Of a stretch of DNA of 10,956 nt, positions 1,267-7,418 are shown one piece after another. Below the pieces are notes generated by a model that saw only the letters and a list, made by a program, of their open reading frames with translations, made no database searches and was not told where the DNA came from. Made by a program: the position numbers and the translations under genes. Source of the DNA: Nitrospirota bacterium (GTDB lineage: Bacteria > NPL-UPA2 > JAADIA01); contig JAADIA010000029.1 of assembly GCA_013151555.1 (NCBI GenBank), forward strand, positions 1 through 10,956. The letters are read 5' to 3'. Every line of letters starts with the position of its first letter. Within the stretch, counting starts at the first letter, position 1.

Positions 1267-1355
1267 GACTATAGACGATAGACTAAAGACCACGGACTAT
1301 GGACTAAAAGATTCTTTTGGTTTTTGTCTAAAGTCTAAGGTCTCTAAGGTTTAAG
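1267..1355. repeat. Inverted heptamer array between murA and hisD
   Basis: Six consecutive 7-base units of the form GACNNNN run from 1267 to 1308, for example GACTATA, GACGATA and GACTAAA. They begin one base after the murA stop codon. After an A/T-rich centre, the complementary form NNNNGTC runs from about 1322 to 1342 in the same 7-base period (for example TAAAGTC, TAAGGTC), followed by decayed units to about 1355. The arms 1284-1304 and 1326-1346 pair over 21 positions with 15 Watson-Crick pairs and 2 G-T pairs, leaving a 21-base loop. The RNA could therefore fold into a long imperfect hairpin. No protein product is likely here. The array might act as a partial terminator or mRNA stabiliser, but there is no clear U-tract after it. 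The repeat pattern is read directly; any function is inference. Confidence 0.8.
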
Positions 1356-1377
1356 TGGAAGGAAGGAAGAAAGAAGA

Positions 1378-2604
1378 ATGCCGGTGATTAAGTCGTGGCA
1401 GGATAAAGCCGCTATAGAAAAAATCGTCAATAGATGTTCTGTCGATGAGATGGTGGATGAGACGGTGAGCAAGGTTGTGAAAGATGTTCGTCTGAACGGC
1501 AACCGGGCTGTCTTGAAGTATACCAGGAAGTTCGATAAAGTTTCTCTGGAAACGTCCCGGCTCAGAGTTTCCCGGAAAGAGATAAAAGAAGCATTCCGAA
1601 AGATGGATAAGGAATTGGTGCAGCTTATCGATTCCGTCCGGAAAAATATAGTAAAATTTCATAAACGGGAACTCCGGAAGTCCTGGACCTCGACGAAGGA
1701 AGGATTAACTCTGGGGCAAAGTTACCAACCTTTGAAAAGAGTAGGGGTTTATGTTCCGGGAGGGACGGCTCCCCTTCTCTCCAGTTTGCTTATGACGGTT
1801 GTTCCGGCGCGGGTAGCCGGGGTCCGGGATATAGTGATGACTTCCCCTCCGGGAAAGGAGGGAGATATTCATCCTTACCTCCTGGCAGCGGCTCATCTTC
1901 TCCAGGTAGATGAGGTCTACCGGATCGGAGGAGCGCAGGCGGTTGCTGCTTTGGCTCTGGGGACGGAGACTATCTCCCCGGTTGATAAAGTCATCGGGCC
2001 GGGAAACCGGTATGTTGTTTCTGCCATGAGGCAGGTTTTCGGTCGGGTAGGAGTGGGGGTGCTTCCCGGTCCCAGCGAAGTGGTTATTTTAGCCGATGGA
2101 GGAGCTAAAGCCTCTTTTGTTATTGCCGACCTCAAAGCTCAGGCCGAGCACGAAAAGGGTTTAGCGGTGCTTTTAACTACTTCTATGAAGTTAGCCGGGA
2201 AAGTGGCGGAAGAGGTTAAGGGCAGCTATATTATCGTTACTAAAAGCAAGGAAGAAGCGGTGCGGATTATCAATAGAATCGCTCCGGAGCATCTGGAGAT
2301 TATGGTCAAGAATCCCCGGGGAGTTATCAATAAAGTTACCGGTAGTGGCACTATTTTCCTGGGGCCCTATACGCCTACGGCTGTCGGTGATTATGTTGCC
2401 GGGCCCAGCCATGTCCTGCCGACCGGGGGGACGGCTCGATTCTCTTCCGGCCTTTCCGTAGATGACTTCCGGAGAAGGTCGAACGTTATCTCTTATAACC
2501 GGGAACAGTTAAAGAAAGTTATAAAACCTGTTGCCCGGCTGGCGGAAATAGAGGGTATGCAAGCTCATGCGGACTCTGTTAAGATTCGGATAAGCAGGAG
2601 GTAA
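1378..2604 (+). CDS. hisD: Histidinol dehydrogenase (HisD), compact form
   Basis: HisD oxidises L-histidinol to L-histidine with two NAD+ in the last two steps of histidine synthesis. Family motifs present are YVPGGTAP (125-132), GGAQAVAALA (184-193), GPGNRYV (207-213), LPGPSEV (229-235), AQAEHE (254-259), IAPEHLEI (301-308) and the GDYVAGPSHVLPTGGTARFS segment starting at 337. The zinc ligands Gln255, His258, Asp338 and His397 and the catalytic Glu304-His305 pair are all present, so it should be active. At 408 residues it is shorter than the usual 425-435. The deficit lies just after residue 280, where about 18 residues before the YIIV strand are missing. The ATG at 1378 follows a purine-rich stretch (GGAAGGAAGG at about 1361) that can act as the ribosome binding site. 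It lies upstream of hisB with a 5-base gap. Confidence 0.96.
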   Translation: MPVIKSWQDKAAIEKIVNRCSVDEMVDETVSKVVKDVRLNGNRAVLKYTRKFDKVSLETSRLRVSRKEIKEAFRKMDKELVQLIDSVRKNIVKFHKRELRKSWTSTKEGLTLGQSYQPLKRVGVYVPGGTAPLLSSLLMTVVPARVAGVRDIVMTSPPGKEGDIHPYLLAAAHLLQVDEVYRIGGAQAVAALALGTETISPVDKVIGPGNRYVVSAMRQVFGRVGVGVLPGPSEVVILADGGAKASFVIADLKAQAEHEKGLAVLLTTSMKLAGKVAEEVKGSYIIVTKSKEEAVRIINRIAPEHLEIMVKNPRGVINKVTGSGTIFLGPYTPTAVGDYVAGPSHVLPTGGTARFSSGLSVDDFRRRSNVISYNREQLKKVIKPVARLAEIEGMQAHADSVKIRISRR

Positions 2605-2609
2605 AGATT

Positions 2610-3212
2610 ATGCGCAAGAGAGAAGCAAAAGTAGAAAGAGTTACCAAAGAGACGGAAATAAAGTTAAGGCTTGTCCTGGATGGGACCGGGCAGTATAAGA
2701 TAAAAACGGGAATTCCTTTCCTGGACCATATGCTTTCTCTCTTTACCAGGCATGGATTATTCGATTTGGAAATAGAAGCTAAAGGCGACCTGGAAGTGGA
2801 TATCCATCATACTAATGAGGATGTGGGGATATGTTTAGGGGAAGCTCTGAAAAAGGCTTTGGGGGATAAAAGGGGCATCAAGAGGTTTGGCTTTGCCTGT
2901 ATTCCGATGGATGAGTCCTTGGGCCGGGTGGTCCTGGATATTAGCGGGAGGCCTTCTTTGCACATAAAGTCGCAGGAAATATCCTTGCGATCTTTAAAGG
3001 AAGAAAAAGGATACATTTTTGAAGATGCTAAACAGTTTCTGTTGGCTTTTATAACTAGCAGCGGTATAAATATGCATATTGATATTTTTCAGGGCGACGA
3101 TGCCCATCATGTTTTGGAGGCTATCTTCAAATCTTTGGGGAAGGCTTTGGATGAAGCGACTCGACTTGACGAACGGATAAGAGGTATCCCCTCTACAAAG
3201 GGTGCGCTTTAA
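2610..3212 (+). CDS. hisB: Imidazoleglycerol-phosphate dehydratase (HisB)
   Basis: HisB is a manganese-dependent enzyme that dehydrates imidazole glycerol phosphate to imidazole acetol phosphate, the sixth step of histidine synthesis. It is usually a 24-subunit cytoplasmic complex. At 200 residues it is the monofunctional dehydratase without a fused phosphatase, so histidinol-phosphatase must be encoded elsewhere. Both duplicated metal-binding motifs are visible: HHTNED at 66-71 and DDAHHVLE at 163-170, along with FLDHML (37-42), ALGDKRGI (83-90), PMDESL (99-104), SGRPSL (112-117) and the typical C-terminal IRGIPSTKGAL. A strong AGGAGG at 2596-2601, overlapping the end of hisD, fixes the ATG at 2610. 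Its TAA is followed directly by the hisA ATG with no gap, so translation is probably coupled. Confidence 0.97.
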   Translation: MRKREAKVERVTKETEIKLRLVLDGTGQYKIKTGIPFLDHMLSLFTRHGLFDLEIEAKGDLEVDIHHTNEDVGICLGEALKKALGDKRGIKRFGFACIPMDESLGRVVLDISGRPSLHIKSQEISLRSLKEEKGYIFEDAKQFLLAFITSSGINMHIDIFQGDDAHHVLEAIFKSLGKALDEATRLDERIRGIPSTKGAL

Positions 3213-3941
3213 ATGCTGATTATTCCAGCCATTGATATCCGGAATGGGCGCGTGGTCAGATTAATCCAGGGAGACTTTGAGCAGGAAACGGTTTATGATG
3301 ATGACCCTGTTGGAGTTGCCCGAAAATGGGAAAGCGAAGGAGCCGAACTTATCCATATTGTTGATCTGGATGGAGCCCGGGAAGGAAGACCGGAAAACCT
3401 GAAATTAGTGGAAGATATAGCCAGGGAAATTTCCATACCGGTTGAGCTGGGTGGAGGAGTGAGGAATTTAAGAACCATTGAAAGTATCCTGGACAAGGGA
3501 ATAGAACGTGTTATTCTGGGAACGGAGGCGGTCGAATCCCCGGAGATAATCAAGGAAGCCTGCCGGGAATTCGGAGAGAGGATTGTCGTCGGAATTGATG
3601 CTAAAGATGGCCTGGTAGTGGTAAGGGGTTGGGTTTCTTCGACCTCCAGAAAGGCTGTCGATTTGGCGGAAGAGATGGAAGGGGCGGGAGTGAGAACTAT
3701 TATCTTTACCGATATAAAGCGCGATGGGATGTTGAGTGGTCCGAATCTGGAAAGTTTAAAAGAGATGCTAAAAGCAATTACTATTCCCCTCATTGCTTCC
3801 GGCGGGATTTCCCGCTTAGAAGATATTAACAGCATTAAGAGCCTGAGGGACGAAAAACTCCAGGGAGTAATCGTCGGGAAAGCTCTTTATGACGGACGAG
3901 TTAATCTTCGGGAAGCTATAACTGTTTCTGAGGCCGGATAG
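3213..3941 (+). CDS. hisA: Phosphoribosylformimino-5-aminoimidazole carboxamide ribotide isomerase (HisA)
   Basis: HisA is a (beta/alpha)8-barrel enzyme that catalyses the Amadori rearrangement of ProFAR to PRFAR in histidine synthesis. At 242 residues the length is typical. The catalytic aspartates are visible as Asp8 in IPAIDIRNG and Asp129 in VGIDAKDG. The phosphate-binding and strand-end motifs also fit HisA: HIVDLDGA (48-55), PVELGGGVR (76-84), RGWVSSTSRKAVDLA (138-152), DIKRDGMLSGPN (167-178), IASGGIS (194-200) and VGKALYDG (221-228). HisF is the nearest paralogue, but the first-strand and GW motifs match HisA better. hisH normally lies beside hisA and is absent here. The ATG abuts the hisB stop, with a weak AAGGGTG upstream. 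A glycosyltransferase starts immediately after its TAG. Confidence 0.96.
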   Translation: MLIIPAIDIRNGRVVRLIQGDFEQETVYDDDPVGVARKWESEGAELIHIVDLDGAREGRPENLKLVEDIAREISIPVELGGGVRNLRTIESILDKGIERVILGTEAVESPEIIKEACREFGERIVVGIDAKDGLVVVRGWVSSTSRKAVDLAEEMEGAGVRTIIFTDIKRDGMLSGPNLESLKEMLKAITIPLIASGGISRLEDINSIKSLRDEKLQGVIVGKALYDGRVNLREAITVSEAG

Positions 3942-4670
3942 ATGCTAAAAGCAGGAGTGATAATTCCTATCTACAATGAAGAAAAAACGATATTTTCTTT
4001 GGTTAAAAACCTCCTTACTTTATCTGCCGGCGGGCAGGGAGTGGTGGAAGAAGTAGTCATCATAGATGACGGCTCTACCGATAATACCTGTAAGGAAGCC
4101 AGAAAAGCAGGTGCCCAGGTTATTTCTCACCGGGAAAACAAAGGGAAAGGGGAGGCTTTAAAGACCGGTTTCCGGTATGCTCTTCAGAAGGGATTTGAAG
4201 TGGTTATTACCATGGATGGCGATGAGCAACATGATTGGAAAGAGATTCCCGCTTTCCTGGAGAAGGCTCAGGAGAATCAGGCTGATATCATTATTGGTAA
4301 CCGTATGGGGAATGTTAAGAGTATGCCTTTCCTTCGTCTCTGGACTAACCGGGTTACTTCCTGGGTAATTTCTGCTGTAGCTCGTCAGAAAATTGATGAT
4401 AGCCAGTCGGGTTATCGACTTATAAGGAAGGAAGTTCTCCAGAACGTTGACTTGGTAACCTCGAACTTCGATACGGAATCGGAGATGCTGATTAAAGCCG
4501 TCCAGCATGGTTATCGGATTTCTTCTCTCCCGATAAAGACTATCTATAAAGATAAGTTTACCAGCAAGATAAAACCGATTAAGGATACTATTAGATTTAT
4601 TAAATTGGTTTTCAAATTCTGGTTTTTTAAAAAAATAGAAGCCAGAAGTCAGAAGACAGAAAGCAGATAA
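3942..4670 (+). CDS. Family 2 glycosyltransferase (polyprenyl-phosphate sugar transferase type), repeat-derived C-terminus
   Basis: This is a GT-A fold family 2 glycosyltransferase resembling dolichol/polyprenyl-phosphate mannosyl- or glucosyltransferases. Such enzymes transfer a sugar from a nucleotide donor to a lipid carrier at the inner face of the membrane. Motifs are PIYNEE (9-14), the nucleotide-binding DDGSTD (42-47), NKGKGEALKTGF (66-77), MDGDEQHD with the metal-binding DxD (91-98) and DSQSGYR with the probable catalytic aspartate (153-159). There is no C-terminal transmembrane pair, only a basic and hydrophobic stretch (FIKLVFKFWFFKK, about 219-231) that may sit on the membrane. The last 11 residues (232-242) and the TAA stop are encoded by a 7-base repeat array, so the natural C-terminus has been replaced or extended. 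The gene follows hisA without a gap. The donor and acceptor cannot be read from the sequence. Confidence 0.9.
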   Translation: MLKAGVIIPIYNEEKTIFSLVKNLLTLSAGGQGVVEEVVIIDDGSTDNTCKEARKAGAQVISHRENKGKGEALKTGFRYALQKGFEVVITMDGDEQHDWKEIPAFLEKAQENQADIIIGNRMGNVKSMPFLRLWTNRVTSWVISAVARQKIDDSQSGYRLIRKEVLQNVDLVTSNFDTESEMLIKAVQHGYRISSLPIKTIYKDKFTSKIKPIKDTIRFIKLVFKFWFFKKIEARSQKTESR

Positions 4671-4725
4671 CGGAAGTCGGATTTTTTCTGTCATCTGTTC
4701 TCTGTTATCCGGGCTCTGTTCTTGG
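4636..4725. repeat. Inverted heptamer array spanning the glycosyltransferase 3' end
   Basis: Seven 7-base units, mostly CAGANNN, run without interruption from 4636 to 4684 (for example CAGAAGT, CAGAAGA, CAGAAAG, CAGATAA). They are followed in exact 7-base phase by six units of the reverse-complement type NNNTCTG from 4684 to 4725 (for example TTTTCTG, TCATCTG, TTCTCTG). The first five units are translated, and the TAA of the CAGATAA unit is the stop codon of the glycosyltransferase. The arms can pair as 4666-4674 with 4701-4709 (8 Watson-Crick pairs plus one G-T) and 4656-4660 with 4715-4719. A shifted register, 4664-4680 with 4688-4704, is also possible. The array ends about 8 bases before the pcm ATG. 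Position and periodicity are read directly; its role is unknown. Confidence 0.85.
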
Positions 4726-4733
4726 GAGCATTT

Positions 4734-5375
4734 ATGGGATTCGAAGAAGAACGGAAGCGGATGGTCGAAATTCAGCTCCGGGGAAGGAACATTAAAGACG
4801 AAAAGGTTCTGAGGGCTATGGAAAGAGTTCCCCGGCATAAATTCGTAGAGAAAGATTGCCAGAAGGATGCTTATGCTGACCGGCCTTTACCTATTGGAGA
4901 AGGGCAAACTATCTCTCAGCCTTATATGGTGGCTTTAATGACCCAATGTCTGGAATTGAAAGGAAACGAGAAGGTACTCGAGATAGGAACCGGTTCCGGT
5001 TATCAGGCAGCTATTCTGGCTGAGTTAGCTAAGGAAGTTTATAGTGTAGAGAGAACTGAGAGTCTCAGCCGGAGAGCAACGAAAAATCTTCAGGAACTGG
5101 GTTATACTAATATAAAACTTAAAATTGGTGATGGAACTAAGGGTTGGGAAGAACATGCTCCTTACGAGAGCATCATGGTGACTGCCGGCTCCCCGGACAT
5201 TCCTCAAGTCCTGGTTGAACAACTATCCGAGGGAGGGCAGATGGTCATCCCGGTAGGAGGTAGCTATTCTCAAGAGTTAGTGGTACTCAGAAAGCGAAAA
5301 GGTAAAGTAGAGAAGAAGGATATCTGCGGCTGTGTATTTGTTCCCCTTATTGGTGAATTTGGATGGAAGGAATAA
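4734..5375 (+). CDS. pcm: Protein-L-isoaspartate O-methyltransferase
   Basis: PCMT methylates L-isoaspartyl residues formed by spontaneous protein damage, using S-adenosylmethionine, and so starts their repair. The ATG at 4734 gives 213 residues, which matches the family. It is preferred over an in-frame TTG at 4722 because the likely ribosome binding site GGGAG (4724-4728) lies between the two. Motifs are DRPLPIGEGQTISQPYMVA (49-67), the SAM-binding VLEIGTGSGYQAAILAE (81-97), VYSVER with the acidic ribose-binding residue Glu106, and the C-terminal FVPLIGEFGW (202-211). The 5' untranslated region is the right arm of a heptamer repeat array, so folding of that array could affect access to the start. 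The gene overlaps the next one by 13 bases. Confidence 0.95.
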   Translation: MGFEEERKRMVEIQLRGRNIKDEKVLRAMERVPRHKFVEKDCQKDAYADRPLPIGEGQTISQPYMVALMTQCLELKGNEKVLEIGTGSGYQAAILAELAKEVYSVERTESLSRRATKNLQELGYTNIKLKIGDGTKGWEEHAPYESIMVTAGSPDIPQVLVEQLSEGGQMVIPVGGSYSQELVVLRKRKGKVEKKDICGCVFVPLIGEFGWKE

Positions 5376-5896
5376 CCTCTAATATAATATCTGCTTTACA
5401 GGGTATTCCCAAAGAGTTGACCGTTGTCCTTATCTCGACCTTGCCCATATCGGAGTTGAGAGGAGCTATTCCCTGGGCGGTATTGGGAATGAATATGCCC
5501 TTAGGCAAGGTCTATCTTTTAGCTGTGATTGGCAATCTGATACCGGTTATTCCATTGCTGCTTCTGCTGAACGGTCTTACTGAATGGCTGGGTCGCTTCT
5601 CTTTTTTTAAGCGTCCTCTTGACTGGTGGTTCTCCCGGGTGGAACGGCGGGGAGGAATAGTGGAAAAGTATGGAGCTATAGGCTTAACCCTATTTGTAGC
5701 TATCCCTCTTCCGATCACCGGAGCCTGGACAGGGTGTGCTGCAGCTATGCTTTTTAAAAAGAAGTTTCGTTATGCCTTTCCCGCTATTGTCTGTGGAGTG
5801 CTTTTATCCGGAGCTGTGGTGAGCTTTTTGACCTGGTTGGTAAAAGCAGGAATTATGGAAAGTGGAGGACTTTTTCTTAAATCCTTAAACCGGTAA
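5363..5896 (+). CDS. COG2426 / small multidrug export (PF06695) family membrane protein
   Basis: This is a 177-residue integral membrane protein of the family labelled 'small multi-drug export', whose function is poorly established. The two diagnostic re-entrant-type motifs are present: PISELRGAIP (28-37) and IPLPITGAWTG (114-124). Hydrophobic segments lie at about 18-43, 50-70, 104-128 and 138-162. A basic, probably cytoplasmic loop with RPLDWWFSRVERRGG (84-98) lies between the second and third. The ATG at 5363 overlaps the end of pcm by 13 bases and has no good ribosome binding site, so translational coupling is likely. The stop codon TAA lies inside the first unit (CGGTAAC) of another 7-base repeat run. 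The family assignment is fairly sure; drug export is only the historical name. Confidence 0.88.
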   Translation: MEGITSNIISALQGIPKELTVVLISTLPISELRGAIPWAVLGMNMPLGKVYLLAVIGNLIPVIPLLLLLNGLTEWLGRFSFFKRPLDWWFSRVERRGGIVEKYGAIGLTLFVAIPLPITGAWTGCAAAMLFKKKFRYAFPAIVCGVLLSGAVVSFLTWLVKAGIMESGGLFLKSLNR

Positions 5897-5959
5897 CCCG
5901 TAACGCATAACGCATATCCATACAGGATGTAGCGCATCTGCCGAGGCGGAGCGTTAACA
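5891..5959. repeat. Short NNNTAAC heptamer run at the stop of the COG2426 gene
   Basis: Four consecutive 7-base units run from 5891 to 5918: CGGTAAC, CCGTAAC, GCATAAC and the decayed GCATATC. The TAA of the first unit is the stop codon of the membrane protein gene. A single inverted counterpart, GCGTTA, lies at 5951-5956 and can pair with the TAACGC at 5901-5906 or 5908-5913. The stretch between holds a small hairpin (ATCC 5917-5920 with GGAT 5925-5928). The rest of this 86-base spacer to the tRNA contains AT-rich TATTATATT at 5966-5974, which could be the -10 region of the tRNA promoter, but I see no convincing -35 box. Confidence 0.65.
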
Positions 5960-5982: not shown

Positions 5983-6057
5983 CGGGGTGTAGCGCAGCTT
6001 GGTTAGCGCGCTTCGTTCGGGACGAAGAGGTCGGCGGTTCGAATCCGCCCACCCCGA
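5983..6057 (+). tRNA. tRNA-Pro (anticodon CGG)
   Basis: The 75-base sequence folds into a complete cloverleaf. The acceptor stem is CGGGGTG (5983-5989) with CACCCCG (6050-6056), with discriminator A at 6057. The D arm is GCGC (5992-5995) with GCGC (6006-6009) around a loop containing GG. The anticodon stem is CTTCG (6011-6015) with CGAAG (6023-6027), with loop TTCGGGA placing the anticodon CGG at 6018-6020. The T arm is GGCGG (6033-6037) with CCGCC (6045-6049) around TTCGAAT. The C1-G72 pair and A73 are typical of bacterial tRNA-Pro. It reads the CCG codon. The 3' CCA is not encoded (TTC follows), so it must be added by CCA-adding enzyme. A near copy of its T arm lies 148 bases downstream. 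Confidence 0.97.
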
Positions 6058-6063
6058 TTCTTA

Positions 6064-6119
6064 GCTGACCTCAGGGGATGGTAAGGGGAAGGTCCCCTTA
6101 CGCCTGGGGGGTTATCAGC
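6064..6119 (+). other. Nested hairpin just downstream of tRNA-Pro
   Basis: A perfect 9-bp stem, GTAAGGGGA (6081-6089) with TCCCCTTAC (6093-6101), encloses an AGG loop. It is nested in CAGG (6072-6075) with CCTG (6103-6106), and in an outer stem GCTGA (6064-6068) with TCAGC (6115-6119). There is no U-tract, so it does not look like a classical intrinsic terminator, although it could serve as a 3' processing or pausing structure for the tRNA transcript. It could also be a REP-like structure linked to the nearby RAYT. The pairing is seen directly; the role is open. Confidence 0.6.
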
Positions 6120-6137
6120 GAACAAAGTGAGCGCCCT

Positions 6138-6155
6138 AGGGGGGCTTGCCCCCCT
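6138..6155 (+). other. GC-rich hairpin upstream of the transposase element
   Basis: AGGGGGG (6138-6144) and CCCCCCT (6149-6155) form a perfect 7-bp stem with a CTTG loop. A small GCC-GAA-GGC hairpin follows at 6164-6172. Together with the hairpin at 6064-6119, this makes the whole spacer between the tRNA and the transposase element a row of stable structures without an open reading frame. No T-run follows, so a terminator call is not supported. Confidence 0.5.
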
Positions 6156-6175
6156 GTGGGGGAGCCGAAGGCGAC

Positions 6176-6191
6176 AGGTTGGCGGTTCGAA
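6176..6191 (+). repeat. Partial copy of the tRNA-Pro T arm
   Basis: These 16 bases match tRNA positions 6028-6043 (variable loop, 5' T-stem and T-loop start) at 15 of 16 positions; the one change is C to T at the fifth base. The copy breaks off exactly where the left inverted repeat of the transposase element begins (6192). The rest of the tRNA 3' end is not found beyond the right end of the element. It may be a remnant of a tRNA-targeted integration or of a local duplication. Confidence 0.6.
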
Positions 6192-6210
6192 AAAGGGGAC
6201 AGGCTACTTT
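6192..6210 (+). repeat. Left inverted repeat of RAYT element
   Basis: AAAGGGGACAGGCTACTTT is the exact reverse complement of 6913-6931. Read on the complementary strand it contains GTAG followed by CCTGTCCCC. GTAG is the tetranucleotide that commonly starts REP sequences recognised by RAYT proteins, but no REP-type stem-loop is evident inside the 19 bases. Confidence 0.85.
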
Positions 6211-6214
6211 AATT

Positions 6215-6231
6215 CTTTTTATTAAAAAGGA
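6215..6231 (+). promoter_or_regulatory. Hairpin covering the transposase ribosome binding site
   Basis: CTTTTT (6215-6220) and AAAAAG (6224-6229) form a perfect 6-bp stem with an ATT loop. The probable Shine-Dalgarno AAGGA (6227-6231) begins in the right arm and ends 7 bases before the GTG start. The stem is A-U rich and so weak, but its position would reduce ribosome access. Sequestration of the transposase ribosome binding site by a leader hairpin is established for IS200. Confidence 0.5.
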
Positions 6232-6238
6232 CTAATCT

Positions 6239-6910
6239 GTGCCAAGAATTGCACGAGGTTTAACTGACGGTTTTATTTACCATGTGCTTAACCGGGGAAA
6301 CGGTAAACAGGAGATTTTCCATAAAGATCAGGATTACAAAGGCTTTGTTGAATTAATAGAAGAGGCGAAGAGCCGGTATTCTGTAAAGATTTTGGCGTAT
6401 TGTTTAATGCCAAATCACTTCCATCTGGTCGTGATGCCCATTCAGGCTGAAGAATTAAGCAAATATATGCAATGGTTAATGACCAGTCATGTGCGGCGGT
6501 ATCATACCTGTTATGGAACCAGTGGTCATGTATGGCAGGGGCGCTTTAAGAGTTTTATGATTCAAGAAGACCGTCATTTGTTAACGGTTCTGAGGTATGT
6601 TGAAGGCAATCCGGTAAGAGCTAATCTGGTTAAATCAGCTAAAGATTGGATGTGGTCTTCTAATAGAGAATCAGTCGGCAAAAATCTTCACTTTTTGATT
6701 GATAAACTCTCAATAGAATTACCTCAGGATTGGGGTCGATATATAGATGAGCCTTTAACCGCAAATGAACTCGCGAAGTTATCTGAGAGTACGAATCGTG
6801 GATCTCCCTATGGAACACCAATATGGCAGATGAAGGTGAGTAAGGATCTGGGATTAGAATCTACTCTCAGGCCAAGAGGAAGGCCAAGGAAAAGAATTGG
6901 AAAGGAATAA
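6239..6910 (+). CDS. REP-associated tyrosine transposase (RAYT, Y1/HUH family)
   Basis: This is a 223-residue single-strand DNA transposase of the Y1/HUH superfamily (PF01797), RAYT branch. It has the metal-binding HUH motif in LMPNHFHLV (His60, His62) and the probable catalytic Tyr120 in LRYVEGNPVRANLV. The RAYT signatures GHVWQGRFKS (96-105), WSS (139-141) and the basic C-terminal RPRGRPRKR tail (211-219) are also present. The family opens MPR...YHVLNRGN, which supports the GTG start at 6239 with AAGGA at 6227-6231. The frame is intact with no stop or frameshift, so the enzyme may be active. It would nick and join DNA at the flanking inverted repeats or related REP sequences. Its TAA (6908-6910) overlaps the beginning of the next gene's present reading frame. 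Confidence 0.93.
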   Translation: MPRIARGLTDGFIYHVLNRGNGKQEIFHKDQDYKGFVELIEEAKSRYSVKILAYCLMPNHFHLVVMPIQAEELSKYMQWLMTSHVRRYHTCYGTSGHVWQGRFKSFMIQEDRHLLTVLRYVEGNPVRANLVKSAKDWMWSSNRESVGKNLHFLIDKLSIELPQDWGRYIDEPLTANELAKLSESTNRGSPYGTPIWQMKVSKDLGLESTLRPRGRPRKRIGKE

Positions 6911-7418
6911 AAAAAGTAGCCTGTCCCCTTTATTGCAGATTGGGGTTATTGGGTCGGGGGATTGTTCTCCGGAAGTAGGTAGGATTGCTGAAGAGGTGGG
7001 GGAGGGAATTGCCGGGGCTGGGGCAGTTCTTGTCTGCGGGGGGTTGGGAGGAGTTATGGAAGCGGCTGCCCGGGGAGCCAAGAAAGCCGGTGGTTATACC
7101 ATAGGAATCCTCCCTGGATTTAGTCGGGAAGAAGCTAATAAATATATAGATTTCTCTATCGTTACCGGACTGAGTCTGGCTCGCAATGTGCTTGTAGTCC
7201 GGTCTTCAGATGCCCTGATTGCCGTTGAGGGCAGGTTTGGAACTTTATCCGAGATAGCTATTGCTTTACAGAGCGGTGTGCCTGTGGTTGGGATAGGCAC
7301 CTGGGAATTGAAGAAGCGGGGAAAGAAGATAGAGGAAATAAAGAGAGCGCAAACCTCTGAGGAAGCAGTAAGAAAAGCTGTTGAAGCTGCTCGGGAGAGG
7401 GTGAGAAATGGAAGATAA
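6897..7418 (+). CDS. SLOG/LOG-like nucleotide-binding protein (TIGR00725-type), chimeric N-terminus
   Basis: This Rossmann-like SLOG superfamily protein is related to the LOG/YvdD phosphoribohydrolases but belongs to the divergent TIGR00725 group. Motifs are IGVIGSGDCSPE (15-26), VLVCGGLGGVMEAAARGA (44-61), GILPG (70-74) and GRFGTLSEIAIAL (112-124), which occupies the place of the LOG PGGxGTxxE motif. Because that motif is altered, enzymatic activity cannot be assumed; it may bind a nucleotide-derived ligand. The longest frame starts at TTG 6897, inside the transposase gene, with AAGGA at 6886-6890 upstream. Residues 2-12 are then encoded by the transposase tail and the right inverted repeat. 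A TTG at 6933 would give a family-like MQIGVIG start but has no ribosome binding site. The insertion probably removed the original start. It overlaps the next gene by 11 bases. Confidence 0.82.
   Translation: MERNKKSSLSPLLQIGVIGSGDCSPEVGRIAEEVGEGIAGAGAVLVCGGLGGVMEAAARGAKKAGGYTIGILPGFSREEANKYIDFSIVTGLSLARNVLVVRSSDALIAVEGRFGTLSEIAIALQSGVPVVGIGTWELKKRGKKIEEIKRAQTSEEAVRKAVEAARERVRNGR
6913..6931 (-). repeat. Right inverted repeat of RAYT element
   Basis: This is an exact inverted copy of 6192-6210. It starts 2 bases after the transposase stop codon and is translated in the frame that continues into the downstream SLOG gene. Confidence 0.85.

Follow-up and report, generated by a model that had tools for sequence, protein, structure and literature searches.

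Direct-then-inverted heptamer arrays between genes of an uncultured Omnitrophota bacterium: possible copies of dispersed palindromic repeats

Three arrays of degenerate heptamers lie at gene ends in a 10,956-nucleotide stretch of DNA (the window) from an uncultured Omnitrophota bacterium, and at odds that I put at about even (probability roughly 0.5) they belong to a set of palindromic, non-coding repeats that are prone to form hairpins, have spread as copies, are tolerated by the host and change in length by slippage in 7-nt steps. This reading draws on the common layout of many families in one genome, on near-identical copies at unrelated loci that differ by one heptamer, on arrays that are present in one sister species and absent from the other, and on the location of the arrays, which lie in short co-directional gaps, leave the 5' region of the next gene free and are depleted between divergent genes. 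The arrays belong to a class of repeats seen elsewhere, and their multi-family form is new.

The window comes from a MAG of 1.81 Mb in 99 contigs, and the nearest match of its HisD among named genomes is Candidatus Omnitrophota. The window carries murA, hisD, hisB and hisA, the genes for a family 2 glycosyltransferase, a PCMT-type methyltransferase (pcm-like), a membrane protein of the PF06695 (COG2426-like) kind, a Y1 transposase, a metallophosphoesterase and a long zinc-ribbon/TPR-like protein, an SLOG-type gene and tRNA-Pro; the names of hisB, hisA and the zinc-ribbon/TPR-like protein were assigned from sequence. The genome was sampled as 933 kb of stretches, partly picked by CAGA matches, and unselected contigs were checked apart. 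Periods were scanned as best-lag self-match segments in intergenic DNA, with dinucleotide shuffles of the window (n = 400) as a control. As genes were called by a simple procedure based on codon usage, all distances between arrays and genes are approximate only. When the window was searched against Rfam, tRNA-Pro was the sole match above the gathering score and the arrays matched no structured RNA; a search of the literature on Omnitrophota repeats yielded nothing relevant.

Within the window, strong self-matches at lag 7 are restricted to the three arrays (Table 1), with segment scores of 15.6, 15.0 and 15.1. No lag between 4 and 24 other than 7 scores 14 or more, and lag-7 segments of at least 14 are found in none of the shuffles (0/400), so the three arrays that had been picked out from the letters alone are real. 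In array 1, which directly follows the murA stop codon TGA (1263-1265), the GAC units start at 1267, 1274, 1281, 1288, 1295 and 1302, and the GTC units at 1326, 1333 and 1340. Array 2 has CAGA units at 4643, 4650, 4657 and 4664 and TCTG units at 4687, 4694, 4701 and 4715; the glycosyltransferase stop codon TAA (4668-4670) falls within a unit, and the final ~10 codons of this reading frame are array sequence. The TAAC units of array 3 start at 5894, 5901 and 5908, the first core being the stop codon (5894-5896). The original observation of arrays at or in the upstream stop codon was confirmed, as was, for arrays 1 and 2, that of inverted units after the direct arm. Array 3 is a weak case, with one inverted unit and a genome-unique variant: its CCG/GCA form occurs once in the genome, and the remaining 18 places with three consecutive TAAC units carry other TAACNNN forms, nearly all of them TAACTNN.

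Table 1. Arms, loops and inverted units of the three heptamer arrays (positions in the window)
Feature	Position	Strand	Remark
Array 1, 5' arm: six GACNNNN units after the murA stop	1267..1308	+	member of the genome-wide GAC family
Array 1, loop AGATTCTTTTGGTTTTT	1309..1325	+	resembles loops of other GAC elements (L051, L061, L069, L137)
Array 1, 3' arm: inverted GACNNNN units, GTC on +	1326..1350	-	
Array 2, 5' arm: CAGANNN units over the C-terminal codons and stop of the glycosyltransferase	4636..4677	+	
Array 2, loop, T-rich	4678..4686	+	
Array 2, 3' arm: inverted CAGANNN units, TCTG on +, ending ~12 nt upstream of the pcm-like gene	4687..4721	-	
Array 3: TAACNNN units, first TAA being the PF06695/COG2426 gene stop	5888..5916	+	
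Array 3, single inverted counterpart GCGTTA	5951..5956	-	

The predicted recurrence of intergenic 7-base arrays was found throughout the genome sample, where lag 7 is the best lag of 66 arrays and lag 14 that of 32; lags 8, 9 and 16 follow with 24, 14 and 7 arrays, and no other lag has more than 4 (933 kb). Unselected contigs, coding sequence included, show the same preference, with 50 arrays at lag 7 vs 16 at lag 8 and 15 at lag 9. A period of seven thus prevails but is not strict, as arrays of 8-mers (mainly AGGCACAN) and 9-mers (mostly ACAGGATNA) coexist with the heptamers in the sample; some of these, for instance at L032:13657, L046:482 and L055:14475, are also direct-then-inverted in a heptamer-like layout. 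Pattern scans of the whole genome with three consecutive units locate CAGANNN at 100 places, RGACNNN at 67 and TTAAG at 32, and the heptamer families include CAGANNN, GACNNNN, TAAGNNN, CGAAANN, ATTGNAA and AAGTTNN. Stop codons in all three frames as the cause of the 7-nt period are not a universal reason, because the CAGA and CGAA cores carry no stop. Apparent CAGA arrays in genome G066 (L157-L168) were rejected as members of the class and are unrelated to the arrays, because the repeated CAGATATCAGATACCAGATAGCAGA is coding; it belongs to a C-terminal motif of the sorting type, downstream of YPNPFNP, and looks like a heptamer array to a pattern search.

That unrelated unit sequences share one architecture, a degenerate core in a direct and then an inverted arm, was borne out across the genome and in relatives. 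In the different families, an element opens with a direct arm rich in purines, which is followed by a loop and then by the inverted arm, and most CAGA, GAC, TAAG and CGAA arrays have an inverted (convergent) partner. The purine-rich arm comes first in 20:1 GAC, 16:0 CAGA, 15:1 TAAG and 6:0 CGAA elements, and in 27:1 by a test that is free of the cores. Since the ratio is 5:4 in G002, a genome of the same order, this polarity is not general, which counts against the repeat-element reading. The polarity was the reason to consider a head-to-head addition of ends at breaks, similar to telomere fusion; this idea is weakened by the ratio in G002 and by the loop that the GAC elements of the genome have in common, which speaks for copying instead. 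Elements can also be nested, with TAAG or CGAA arms inside CACAGAG/GGCACAAAG arms, and the CAGA arrays of the unrelated genome G053 are nested likewise. Several TAAG elements contain a GAGCGAANNAAGTGAGCG insert, which is related to an element of C- and G-runs at 6100-6165 of the window.

In unselected stretches of the genomes compared, lag-7 arrays number 13 per 100 kb in the window genome, 30 in G002, about 2 in G008 and near 0 in five others, as counted in small samples. The more numerous arrays of G002 keep the period of seven with different units (TCAGAAG, ACAGTTC, GGTCAAT, AGCTGAA and GTGAACC), and loci from Firmicutes, archaea and actinobacteria show no clear excess at lag 7.

A dispersal of the arrays as repeat elements is supported. 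Of 96 intergenic regions with an array, 73 are similar to another one at E<1e-8, and if DNA similarity of any kind is counted, links exist for 225 of 538 intergenic regions. Three TAAG composites, one in L046 and two in L156, are near-identical: core, ends and outer arms agree, and a clean indel of 7 nt sets them apart. Arrays are also missing where a sister species allows a comparison: the hisD|hisB junction has an array in L077 and none in L075 (91.6 and 90.2% amino acid identity of the flanking genes), and the hisB|hisH and hisH|hisA junctions have arrays in L082 and none in L085, so that the sister lacks the array at 3/3 comparable junctions. In L129 several junctions of the his operon carry arrays; the names of his-operon genes other than hisD were inferred from order and similarity. 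Since arrays occur within his operons and a sister species lacks them at the same junction, they appear to be dispensable and not to be terminators. The original suggestion of a non-autonomous mobile family stands with respect to dispersal, but a target-site duplication, an autonomous partner and a precise element end were looked for and none was found; as for miniature elements of the MITE type, empty sites are seen without a clean target-site duplication, at a divergence between the sisters that is too high for this comparison.

Indels inside arrays measure 7 nt in 30 cases, 6 nt in 10 and 8 nt in 13, an excess that is partly expected because an aligner tends to open gaps of a whole period where DNA is periodic, and a unit resembles its neighbours somewhat more than it resembles distant units. 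An element consists of degenerate ~7-nt units: first the direct, purine-rich arm, then a short loop and last the inverted arm, in some cases within arms of 8-nt units. It would spread as a whole by a putative copying route, and gain and lose units by replication slippage of 7 nt. The recurrent period would then be a property of the expansion step and not of a bound regulator, and the arrays would be tolerated rather than needed. Their palindromes could persist through imperfect arms and a missing SbcCD nuclease, the absence of which may permit palindromes. SbcD is missing in 8/9 Omnitrophota genomes and present in 13/14 controls, and the sole strong match to an SbcC-type ATPase in the window genome is a frame of 1219 residues that is SMC-like by length. 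However, missing SbcCD does not predict the number of arrays, nor does it separate array-rich from array-poor relatives, because G001, G003, G004, G005 and G007 lack SbcCD too. Loss of MutS, which was found in 3/9 Omnitrophota genomes, shows no link with the arrays either: MutS is present in the window genome, and absent both in the array-rich G002 and in array-poor genomes.

Rather unlikely, in my estimate, is the alternative that the arrays are functional RNA hairpins between cistrons or in 3' untranslated regions, similar to REP/BIME, that are kept by selection and slow 3' exonucleases or uncouple the expression of neighbouring genes. The three arrays of the window give folding z-scores of -2.2, -3.1 and -2.6, and the location of arrays is biased: compared with the expectation from intergenic length, array-bearing regions are rare in divergent gaps (2 vs 14.4, p=2e-5) and convergent gaps (3 vs 5.4) and frequent in tandem gaps (83 vs 68.2). 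The ends of TAAG-family elements, read by eye, face one way in about 12/12 tandem cases, as may be expected of RNA hairpins and is not given by a neutral insertion of repeat elements. In stems, GU mismatches slightly outnumber AC mismatches (97 vs 72), a weak excess that is not significant (p=0.09). On the other side, the array is missing at the same junction in sisters, and the arms are uncoupled within elements. The special link with stop codons that had been proposed also disappears once room ahead of the next gene is allowed for. Of the 83 tandem arrays, 41 begin no more than 9 nt from a stop; the expectation is 24.8 for uniform placement, 32.3 when the last 20 nt ahead of the next start are barred to arrays and 38.4 when 35 nt are, so that the closeness can be put down to arrays that avoid the 5' region (~35 nt) of the next gene, in other words to packing.

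The claim that these arrays look different from known heptamer repeats has to be given up, as the GGGAATC/GGGANTN heptamers of Xanthomonas campestris and X. citri show the same layout (Rehm et al. 2015, PMC4692102). These occur as ~70 inverted pairs in each genome, sit between co-directional ORFs, are depleted in divergent gaps, lie at most 50 bp from a stop codon or overlap it, and are mostly transcribed; quadruplexes have been proposed for them (PMC4692102). The arrays described here resemble them in their degenerate intergenic 7-nt units with a conserved core and variable bases, in their inverted pairs, in their preference for co-directional over divergent gaps and in their closeness to stops. 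Unlike the single G-rich, quadruplex-forming family of Xanthomonas, they fall into several A-rich families that are unable to form G-quadruplexes (the CAGANNN, GACNNNN, TAAGNNN and CGAAANN units have no GGG), and they are accompanied by 8- and 9-nt relatives and nested palindromes. The Xanthomonas repeats are also mostly kept between sister species (PMC4692102), which does not favour the repeat-element reading, whereas the absences at the his junctions were seen at a larger divergence.

Other heptamers are less similar in layout. The cyanobacterial STRR or GGGGA(C/T)T heptamers are likewise intergenic tandem arrays, but mainly direct ones with few inverted pairs (PMC4692102), in contrast to the usual inverted partner in the four families above. 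The TAACTGA repeats of Beggiatoaceae, cyanobacteria and Bacteroidetes are intergenic direct heptamers with related variant units, but consist of one invariant heptamer just upstream of start codons and are inverted in only 1/170 sets (PMC4679880). In the available excerpt of the source on Geobacter metallireducens, multicopy heptamer and octamer classes are tandem 7- or 8-nt units, some of them paired on opposite strands at variable distance, that are described as regulator sites and, unlike the arrays here, without a placement at gene ends (PMC2700814).

Bacteria have for years been known to carry heptamer repeats, which still lack an explanation. As the arrays described here lack G-tracts, quadruplexes cannot explain the common layout, and the presence of a Xanthomonas-like layout in several unrelated families indicates that quadruplex formation is not its general reason; the data point to the period and the palindrome as the common factors. 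Possibly, though I consider it unlikely, a dedicated process with steps of ~7 nt builds inverted arrays from many seed words at gene junctions, conserving period and layout and leaving the sequence free, in which case the repeats of Xanthomonas, Nostoc, Geobacter and Omnitrophota would be instances of it. Junctions in sister species and the families of arrays offer a direct testing ground for spread and slippage.

An improbable reading takes the arrays for a row of binding sites whose protein, perhaps a nucleoid-associated one, reads DNA or RNA at one unit per 7 nt. The nearly constant period and the conserved core of 3-5 nt would fit such sites, and the G. metallireducens classes have been proposed as sites of a global regulator (PMC2700814); however, one genome holds many unrelated cores and its relatives hold others, periods of 8 and 9 nt occur alongside 7, and arrays are gained and lost.

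Mobilisation of the arrays as REP-like sequences by the Y1/IS200-like (RAYT-type) transposase encoded in the window (6239-6910) is distinctly improbable. Its family has most genes where arrays are most numerous (6 in G002, and 2 in the window genome), and the array in L077 adjoins a GGTCGCTGTCCC end. Yet the transposase of the window has a flanking repeat of its own, inverted copies of GGGGACAGGCTAC (6190-6215 and 6915-6933), which is no heptamer array, and the genomes G004 and G005 have the transposase family and zero arrays in small samples. Exact copies of GGACAGGCTAC number 13 in the 933 kb; some stand alone and others form close inverted pairs (L148:322-361, L154:4049-4083), and the GGGGACAGGCTAC/GGACAGGCTAC repeat is apparently an active REP-like family in its own right. 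The arrays share with REP/BIME that they are short, dispersed intergenic palindromes, but lack a GTAG-type foot with a fixed stem. Immediately left of the transposase element, the fragment GGTTGGCGGTTCGAA (6176-6192) is similar in sequence to the 3' portion of the neighbouring tRNA-Pro (GGTCGGCGGTTCGAA, 6027-6047), as if the element sat in or beside a duplicated end of this tRNA.

Copying of the inverted arm from the direct arm on site, by template switching (snap-back) during slippage, had been put forward as the source of the palindrome. The two arms are close together, have a core in common and change in unit steps of 7 nt, but the match stays the same when arms are exchanged among the elements of a family: in five families, own arms have no advantage over swapped ones (p 0.66-0.98), and arm 1 is closer to arm 1 of other elements than to its own arm 2. 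The arms are thus not copies of each other, nor are their variable bases compensated, so the compensatory changes suggested for the stems find no support and an origin by snap-back is very improbable. Least credible of all are intrinsic terminators, since hairpins close to stops and a CTGTTTTTT at the end of some TAAG elements are set against T5 tracts after stems that are no more frequent than A5 tracts before them (7/78 each), so that no sense-strand T-tract marks the arrays, and against arrays within the his operons of L077, L082 and L129. These two results and the balance of GU and AC given above also leave the originally proposed role as a 3'-end RNA element unsupported.

At L081:9740-9949, just after the end of what is presumably a his gene, an insertion of ~210 bp with CGGTAACG-type repeats is absent from the sister sequence L100 (~84% DNA identity). 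An element of C- and G-runs, with CAGCGAAC..TGAGCGCC between the G-runs, is present at 6100-6165 of the window and again in another genome, in L080, where it lies between hisB- and hisH-like genes.
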